64,000 bases of DNA from Clavulina sp. PMI_390 (lineage: Eukaryota; Basidiomycota; Agaricomycetes; Cantharellales; Hydnaceae): NCBI GenBank assembly GCA_015039315.1, contig WIDE01000073.1:1-64000 (forward strand), written 5' to 3'. Shown here in pieces: positions 1 through 63,806 of this stretch. The stretch's first letter is position 1, and each line of letters opens with the position of its first letter. Under the pieces are notes generated by a model. That model searched no databases and had not been told where the DNA came from. It saw only the letters and a program-made list of their open reading frames with translations. The position numbers and the translations under genes are program-made.

Positions 1-408
1 ATGGGAAATTTCATGTATTCCGATTAAAATGAACTTCTTGGGTTCCCGACCTAAGATTACGATTTTCTCGATGCTTCTTAAATTAAAGAACAGAGTTAAT
101 TAATATATAGATTAATTAAAGAACCCTCAGGAACTTTAATTAATAATTAATTAATCTCGGAGGGGAGCACGCGATCATATCGCTTGCGCTGATCAATCGC
201 ATTGATAAGCGCCAAGGCCGTTGCTGAGTGATGGCTGAGTAAGAGATCAAAACGGTCTCCGTGACACCCAGGTCAGCTGGTATCGGCGCTGCGTCGTCAC
301 GGATGTACTTAGTAAGAACTCCTCTGCTTCGTCATCGCTTAGTGATGTAAGCCGCTGACTCAGGCTTAGTCGCCTGAGTAAGCGACGAATGGAACGGGTA
401 TATATATA
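1..408. other. gene-free structured AT-rich region with inverted repeats
   Basis: I see no supportable protein gene here. Several near-perfect inverted repeats are visible. TTAATTAAT at 96-104 pairs with ATTAATTAA at 111-119. TTAATTAAAG at 112-121 pairs with CTTTAATTAA at 134-143 across a 12-nt loop. GCGCT plus ATCAAT near 192-203 pairs with ATTGAT plus AGCGC just downstream. CCGTGAC near 259 pairs with GTCACGG near 297. GCTTA at 337-341 pairs with TAAGC at 348-352. CTCAGGC at 359-365 pairs with GCCTGAG at 372-378, and this competes with GTCGC 369-373 / GCGAC 382-386. The belt leads directly into the hammerhead motif, so it may belong to the same RNA element. Confidence 0.6.
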
Positions 409-486
409 CTGGTGGACTATAGCTGATGAGTCCCTATCGACGAAATTCTTCTTCGCGCGAGCGAGAAGTATCCTATTCGCCACCAG
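409..486 (+). ncRNA. type I hammerhead ribozyme
   Basis: A self-cleaving RNA motif is readable base by base. The catalytic core CUGAUGA is at 423-429 and GAAA at 442-445. Stem II is G430-U-C with G439-A-C441, closing a six-base loop. Stem III runs from A445 to C456 and pairs with 461-471; it has one U-U mismatch, one bulged U453 and a GCGA (GNRA) tetraloop at 457-460. The expected cleavage triplet AUC is at 470-472, with the cut after C472. Stem I is C473-U-A-U476 with A419-U-A-G422, then an internal loop (477-479 / 416-418), then a perfect 7-bp helix (480-486 / 409-415). All core nucleotides of the hammerhead consensus are present, and the open end is stem I, which defines type I. The internal loop in stem I is where natural hammerheads make their loop-loop contact. 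In eukaryotic genomes such motifs usually mark retroelements (Penelope-like elements, retrozymes); I cannot tell which this is. Confidence 0.85.
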
Positions 487-555
487 CTTATCAGCTCGCC
501 TTCGGCTCGCTACTCCTCCCCTCCCCGACCCCGACCCCGAAGAGGGGTTTTGGTG

Positions 556-62401: not shown

Positions 62402-63806
62402 CATGATGCAGTCACTCACCGGCTTCCGGTCGAGCTACTATCTGAAGTCTTAACACGTGTAGTGCACTCGTTTCCGGCACTTACTCGAGAGAATCCTTTG
62501 CTGCTTATCACGTCGATATGTCGCCTCTGGCGCGACGTCGCATTGTCTCTTCCTAAACTTTGGATGTTCATTCGCTTCAACGGGGACAAGAAAGTCTACT
62601 CAAGAAGCTCTTCAACCAGTCCTCCACGAGCGCGTGATAGAATCCGCGCTTTTCTCGCACGGTCAAAGAACCTGCCCATAGATGTCGACTATCGAATCCG
62701 GTACTCGTTTAAAAGTATAAAGCACCTTGAACTTTTACGGGATATCATCTTTCCTCATCTCTCGCGGTGTCGAACCTTATTCATTCAAGTGAATACCACT
62801 GAGCAAGTGCAACACATCATGCCGCTTCCAAATGATGTTAGAATGCTCCAAAACTTCCAAATACACCTCGAGGATACGCGATTTCATCCTCCTTCGACCC
62901 TCATAACACTCTTCGCCCCAGGTAATGGCATTAATCTACGTGGGCTTAGCATCTCCTCCATTCACTACCCCCTCCGGCTCGACAGCATCACGGCCACAGA
63001 GCTTCAGAGCCTGAAATACTCTGTCGAAATCGGTTCCCCAAACCTTGTGAATCTCCTGCAGTGGCTAGAAAGTGCCTCTTCCCTAGAAGAACTGGTTCTA
63101 GCAGACAGTCTTGCAGGTTCACCCCAGCCAGTAATCCTTCCCCGCCTCCGTTCTACGAACACCGGCTTTCGATCCGACCACCCCATTTCGTACAACTGGG
63201 TTGTTGAGGCTTGATCTGGAGCTGCCGTTTTCCGAAATGCCTGACGGTGTCAATTTGTCACTGGTTGGATGCGAACTTCCAAATCTCCGTCATTTGGGTA
63301 TTTCCCGCCATAGGAGCAATTTTGTCCCTATCCTTCCGTTTCTTCGGGGGTTCAAAAATGTTGTATACCTGCGTGTTGATGATTGGGAGTGGACTGGGGT
63401 TCTTCAACTCGTTCGCAATCTTGCTAATTTTGGTGGGTCGATCGATTATTCCCGACTAATAGTTGTGCCTTCTTAACACCTTCATAAATTAGGTTGTTTC
63501 CCGCTCAACGGCAGTGAGCCTTCGGAAGACAATCCGCGTCGGCTGCGAGGTAGCCCGTTCGATATCGATCTTTTCCCGAAGCTCCAGCTGTTCGAAATGA
63601 CCTCTATCCAGACAGAGTGGCAAACGTTGAGGCGGACTAACGTGGCCCATCTCCTAGATTGGACAGATGTCTCTACCCATTCTCCACTCAATCAGCTTCC
63701 TGTTGTACGACCTGCGCTTTCCTCCCATTTTGTAGACTGGGTTTGGACTGGGTCGGATGTCGATCAGCAAGTATCATGGAAATTCGGCTCGAATACGAAG
63801 CATTAG
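62402..63806 (+). CDS. F-box/LRR-like protein 7, irregular or damaged
   Basis: The reading frame carries an F-box (HRLPVELLSEVLTRVV ... TSICRLWRDVALSLPKLWMFI) and the family segment RDRIRAFLARSKNLPIDVDY, then leucine-rich strands (LRGLSISSIH, LVNLLQWLESASSLEELVLAD). No in-frame ATG precedes the F-box, so a first exon is missing or lost. A frame change is needed between about 63130 and 63230; one possible intron is 63131 to about 63229 with a weak GGAG acceptor. The next exon (LPFSEMPDGVNLSLVGC ... LRHLGIS) and a last exon after TTAG near 63493 (ending GSDVDQQVSWKFGSNTKH) look sound. Either a gene with unusual splicing or a young pseudogene. Confidence 0.5.

Follow-up and report, generated by a model that had tools for sequence, protein, structure and literature searches.

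Terminons are Athena-type giant retroelements of bdelloid rotifer telomeres, and Arkhipova reportedly described in 2017 that C-rich repeats adjoin the hammerhead ribozyme in them. In fungi, the endonuclease-deficient Penelope-like elements are called Coprina, and Cervera and De la Pena are said to have reported in 2014 that fungal Penelope-like elements have hammerhead variants that are stable as monomers, which would fit the ribozyme considered here. According to the excerpted text of PMC6431247, the 3' hammerhead of Terminons is closely followed by telomere repeats in reverse complement, for which pairing with the G-rich overhang has been proposed. In the available portion of PMC3846280, just one kind of Penelope-like element is given for fungi, the endonuclease-deficient one; such elements use exposed chromosome ends for priming, and telomere repeats are afterwards added as a cap. 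The hammerheads of Penelope-like elements and Terminons are characterized in the excerpts of PMC6155905, PMC7761336 and PMC7229834 as minimal, usually without helix III or loop contacts. Thus, since hammerheads in Penelope-like elements and Terminons have already been described, the kind reported here is known.

We analyzed the first 64 kb of contig C273 (141,257 bases), referred to below as the window, and searched the genome it belongs to (39.4 Mb in 301 contigs). At the outer edge of the window there is a hammerhead, followed by 36 nt and then by C-rich repeats that are probably telomeric, and this arrangement occurs in two copies, both at contig ends and with different inner flanks. We consider it probable that a retroelement attached to the telomere, working in the manner of a Terminon or an endonuclease-deficient Penelope-like element, has its 3' end at window positions 1-540. 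As no Penelope-type reverse transcriptase was found in searches that were weak for that purpose, the likeness to a Terminon end is one of working, and membership is unproven.

Like the Terminons, as excerpted, the locus has a 3' hammerhead and then C-rich repeats that are probably reverse-complement telomere repeats, and while the Terminons sit at chromosome ends in the same part of PMC6431247, the fungal copies sit at contig ends that are apparent chromosome ends. The repeat differs, being CCCCGA and not the (ACACCC)n or (TCACCC)n of the Terminon excerpt, and so do the full stem III, the 36-nt spacer from stem I to the repeats and the fungal host, and neither a reverse transcriptase nor the element length is visible here. 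With the fungal endonuclease-deficient Penelope-like elements, as portrayed in the excerpt of PMC3846280, the locus shares a fungal host and an apparent chromosome-end location, but their defining reverse transcriptase was not found in our genome searches. With the minimal Penelope-like-element hammerheads it shares the type I form and a place in a putative Penelope-like element, whereas stem III of the fungal ribozyme has 10 pairs. Among the literature matches listed, as excerpted, there was no prior report of a fungal Terminon-like ending, and an earlier one may exist; what seems new, among these matches, is the occurrence in a fungus of such a junction with a repeat of the TCGGG(G) type, together with a possible switch. 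If this interpretation is true, the hammerhead-plus-telomere-repeat ending would be known beyond rotifers, from a fungus whose repeat differs, would put the proposed annealing of such RNAs to the chromosome end to an independent test, and would point to a non-TTAGGG telomere in a probable basidiomycete. It would also supply a small RNA for asking what purpose the hammerhead of Penelope-like elements serves, plus a concrete switch to test.

Two copies beside telomere-like repeats

The 3'-terminal part of the putative element occupies positions 1-522 on the + strand and runs on outward past the contig edge at position 1. The preliminary description had proposed a search for other copies, and one more was indeed found in the genome, at the very end of contig C250 (226091-226622, - strand), where 531 of 532 bases are identical to window positions 1-532 and the hammerhead is identical throughout. 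The sole difference between the copies is at 498, and the sequences diverge from 533. Both copies have the same orientation relative to the contig end, and both contigs terminate at the same base of the element, presumably because assemblers stop at the edge of a longer repeat. No tandem unit was seen in 1-532, each copy having one hammerhead, with the other side of any unit beyond the contig edge; positions 1-533 hold no long open reading frame (a 33-codon open stretch of frame 2, starting at position 2 and closed by the TAA at 101-103, is not significant); and a scan of 1-1400 for bacterial-type promoters and terminators gave no excess. The same description had placed the ribozyme in a retroelement and spoken of stable copies beside host genes. 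The anatomy of the telomere junction favors a retroelement, against which no fitting type of reverse transcriptase turned up, but host genes were the wrong frame, as each copy is found at a contig end (which may or may not be the end of a chromosome) and adjoins telomere-like repeats, and the nearest tRNA gene, at 1379, begins about 0.84 kb inward.

Continuing 3' from the ribozyme, the two copies share CTACTCCTCCCCTCCCCGACCCC, with a gap of 36 nt between the hammerhead and the C-rich repeats, which begin as CCCCGACCCC in both. Beyond this point the window completes the telomere-like (CCCCGA)3, read directly at 523-540 on the + strand, and continues with AGAGGGG, whereas in the C250 copy CCCCGACCCC is followed by AAGCC. 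The repeats at 523-540 are complementary to (TCGGGG)3 across 18 nt. An exact genome search with the 16 bases CCCCGACCCCGACCCC found, besides the junctions, only positions 11-26 of contig C230, at whose edge the first ~60 bp are a mixture of CCCGA and CCCCGA, and a looser repeat pattern added only one tract in the genome, inside contig C162. Because this repeat is carried by the C230 edge and the junctions, because (CCCTAA)3 is absent from the genome, and because a telomerase RNA-binding domain is found on contig C13, TCGGG/TCGGGG is probably the host telomere repeat, as judged from one contig edge and these junctions. Rhizoctonia cerealis belongs to the same order as the probable host. It is annotated with CCCTAAA/TTTAGGG telomeres in the available part of PMC12144256. 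For a TCGGGG telomere, the literature matches listed, as excerpted, hold no prior report, and an earlier one may exist.

The tract in C162 (17721-20722, local 1389-1633) is 23 bp of CCCGA/CCCCGA-type sequence between identical 111-bp direct copies (1389-1499 and 1523-1633); it looks as if a staggered break had taken up telomere repeats and left a long target duplication, and there is no ribozyme there. By the probable telomere of C230 (1-6000, local 240-1260) there are diverged repeat copies containing, by eye, 'ccctgttcgac' and 'attttgccccctaa', a family that differs from the subtelomere-like one of C273, C250 and C147.

Inward of the junction and outside the element lies a purine-rich, subtelomere-like flank of diverged repeats (541-1300, the inner limit being approximate). 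Its A+G content is 0.635, and across three flank stretches 0.63-0.64. The longest flank matches, 72-77% identical, are C147:7-472 and the sequence beside the C250 junction, with shorter pieces 80-88% identical, and the C250 flank has one weak match, C7:109858-109950. Contig C147 starts with CCCCGA, followed by this purine-rich family, and by its sequence the start resembles an end without the element. From outside to in, the order in the window is thus element, telomere-like repeats, subtelomere-like repeats, a tRNA gene (1379-1460) and an open reading frame resembling, by eye, an actin-related protein. The tRNA gene, on the - strand, scores 52.3 bits in Rfam and resembles an isoleucine tRNA by eye; ARAGORN left it unnamed, and a short intron at the anticodon may be the cause. 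Further into the window, at 33000-53100 and 62462-63214, open reading frames with F-box-like starts and leucine-rich stretches form an apparent local gene family (by eye), and one F-box-like protein of the window has a single named relative, 46% identical, in Clavulina sp. PMI_390. The host is accordingly likely to be this fungus or a close relation of it in the Cantharellales.

A pair of copies such as this could also represent a subtelomeric repeat, comparable to the Y' elements of yeast, that was copied between chromosome ends by recombination via internal telomere tracts and that holds the hammerhead as a relic. Such copying agrees with the 531/532 identity of the two ends, with the subtelomere-like DNA common to C250, C273 and C147, and with the existence of an internal telomere-like tract on C162, but the copies cease to be identical within the C-rich repeats, resemblance between the inner flanks is only ~77%, and the order of ribozyme and then repeat is that of the published Terminon ending. 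We regard recombination as an unlikely origin for the two ends.

Reverse transcriptases and the proposed mechanism

A profile search of the genome with RVT_1 gave 25 matches at E <= 0.001 and 26 at E <= 10. Inspection of the longest frame showed the xDD motif in 20 of the 26 and in none of the other six, and the 20 are, by eye, what we take to be 9 LINE-like and 11 Ty3/gypsy-like sequences. The motif Q-x-x-G-x-x-M-G occurred in none of the 26 matches, and no Penelope-type reverse transcriptase was found among them, 20 of the 26 being classed; one animal Penelope-like protein, used as the query in a search without a positive control, had no match in the genome. As searches for a Penelope-type enzyme these are weak, because RVT_1 catches Penelope-like proteins poorly (two that we tried score 26.2 and 46.6 bits), because the telomerase on C13 was itself not among the RVT_1 matches, and because the outward part of the element is outside the assembly.

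The LINE-like reverse transcriptases of this genome, so labeled by eye, would be in keeping with a telomere-inserting LINE like MoTeR1 of Pyricularia. Telomere-targeted LINEs are known in fungi from the excerpt of PMC10088271, but here it is the 3' side of the common unit that carries the ribozyme, by the C-rich repeats, whereas the part of PMC7761336 available places LINE ribozymes at 5' ends, and no LINE-like open reading frame is found in 1-533, which leaves a LINE quite improbable. Animal type I hammerheads are often found, according to the excerpt of PMC7229834, in retrozyme-like small non-coding elements spread via circular RNA, but an element of that sort is a very improbable source of a locus with one hammerhead per copy and no tandem unit in 1-532 (the sequence up to the contig edge), and with both copies ending at telomere-like repeats.

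For the telomere-attached retroelement that we favor, it can be hypothesized that transcription of the element in the + direction yields an RNA with CCCCGA repeats at its end, that this tail anneals to an exposed TCGGGG overhang, and that a reverse transcriptase encoded by the element extends the 3' end of the overhang by copying the element RNA. Since reverse transcription would proceed from the 3' end of the chromosome, the 3' end of each copy would come to lie inward and its 5' end outward, and telomerase would later heal the outer end. Where copies are stacked, the hammerhead of the outer copy could cut a read-through RNA and set the 5' end of the next copy. The template RNA would need its own 3' ribozyme uncut, because the annealing tail would be lost on cutting at 472/473, and a helix between 421-431 and 486-496 could, speculatively, hold that ribozyme closed. 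For a Penelope-like element of a lizard, the excerpt of PMC11167929 states that ribozyme mutants still inserted in vitro, that cleavage occurred only with protein and that no reads ended at the cut site; these results leave the role of Penelope-like-element ribozymes unsettled, and the cleavage part of the model may be dispensable. Counting against the Terminon-like reading, the outward part of the element falls outside the assembly, so no open reading frame, element length or outer telomere is visible; the repeats are 36 nt from the ribozyme and not adjoining it; and a longer RNA is predicted to favor a fold other than the hammerhead.

The hammerhead at 409-486

The ribozyme is a type I hammerhead on the + strand (409-486), in which 24 standard pairs in stems I-III surround the conserved core. 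The core segments CUGAUGA (423-429, +) and GAAA (442-445, +; A445 pairs with U471) and the cleavage triplet AUC (470-472, +) are read in the sequence, and the cut is predicted at 472/473, after C472. Stem I consists of 7 bp (409-415/480-486) and 4 bp (419-422/473-476) on either side of a 3 x 3 internal loop (416-418/477-479), stem II of 3 bp (430-432/439-441) with a 6-nt loop, and stem III of ten pairs (445-446/470-471, 448-452/464-468 and 454-456/461-463) closed by the loop GCGA (457-460). The features of a type I hammerhead, i.e. the CUGAUGA and GAAA core, an NUH triplet, three helices and an open stem I, are therefore present, and the core, helices, GNRA loop, AUC, 7-bp distal stem I and internal loop that the preliminary description had named were all found where it had put them.

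Folding of 405-490 gave a z of -2.34, with an equally good fold in 4 of 200 shuffles. The minimum-energy fold of the 78-mer (-24.7 kcal/mol) has stems I, II and most of III in common with the hammerhead (-22.8 kcal/mol). Genome-wide, there were 73 matches to CTGATGAG-N2-28-CGAAA, and helix scoring took in 33 of these 73 places. The two hammerhead copies reached 15 helix pairs each; in 28 of the other 31 scored, no fold contained stems I and III, and the remaining three reached 13, 12 and 10. The third place in the genome to match the exact pattern of core plus stem II, C247:31102, was rejected, having neither stem I nor stem III, and in the viral contigs the exact core had 0 matches.

The Rfam models behaved differently. 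At the curated cut-offs they gave no hammerhead in the 64-kb window, at E <= 1 there was no match in 300-620, and at E <= 10 the only one was RAGATH-1-hammerhead (RF03152; E 2.9), the best Rfam resemblance, of which the sequence is not a member at 14.3 bits against a cut-off of 56.3. When the genome was searched with RF00163 and 73 of 6,821 first-look candidates were scored, 409-486 was not among the matches; two other places, at 22.8 and 17.4 bits, were both set aside as below the cut-off of 34. A covariance model built from the two copies was significant only at those two (63 sequences, 278,445 bases), with three further hits at E 3.5-4.8. An Rfam covariance search was the check by which the preliminary description had proposed that its hammerhead be judged, and the lack of a significant match counts against that claim on its own terms. 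The type I assignment thus stood by sequence and structure, though not by Rfam, where nothing rose above the curated cut-off. We infer that Rfam missed it because stem II is short and stem III long and interrupted. In our judgment, the helices outweigh the model scores, and 409-486 is confirmed by its sequence and structure as a real type I hammerhead, for which self-cleavage is predicted. That the resemblance is due to chance, which the preliminary description had called very unlikely and which would suit the Rfam miss and a core that alone is not rare, being expected about once per window (CTGATGA-N6-20-GAAA was observed once in the 64 kb against 1.11 expected), has an exceedingly slim prospect, as 0 of 200,000 shuffles of the 78-mer with the core and cleavage-site letters fixed formed every helix and 1 of 200,000 reached the total of 24 pairs.

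A possible off-switch

On folding 395-540 we noticed, post hoc, an alternative helix, in which 421-431 (5' arm, + strand), covering the core with the whole of CUGAUGA, forms 11 pairs, two of them G-U, with the anti-core at 486-496 (3' arm, + strand); this pairing excludes the hammerhead fold. It is possible, if rather doubtful, that the locus is a fungal Terminon-like element whose tail tracks the TCGGG(G) host telomere and whose hammerhead has a built-in off-switch in the pairing of 486-496 with 421-431. The switch would close the ribozyme once the tail is made, such that the annealing tail would stay at the RNA's own 3' end, and if true it would resolve how the template RNA escapes losing that tail through the cut at 472. 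We treat it only as a lead, because the helix was noticed post hoc, the energy model is one without tertiary contacts, and the two copies amount to one independent sequence.

A complement covering the core, of at least this length, arose in 46 of 20,000 letter shuffles of 487-540. For RNAs that start at 405, the hammerhead is favored when they end at 486-493 (proximal stem I 0.94), the prediction is mixed for 405-496 (blocking helix 0.59), and the blocking helix is favored when they end at 500, 510 or 540 (0.95-0.96). Adding upstream sequence blurs the picture: with ends at 496-540, the blocking helix takes values of 0.45-0.96 (start 395), 0.56-0.97 (start 330) and 0.78-0.97 (start 250), and for the starts at 330 and 250 the hammerhead is in the minority (distal stem I 0.05-0.31) even when the RNA ends short of the blocker. 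In 395-540, the blocked fold (-38.3 kcal/mol) is lower in energy than the best fold that retains the hammerhead (-35.3 kcal/mol).
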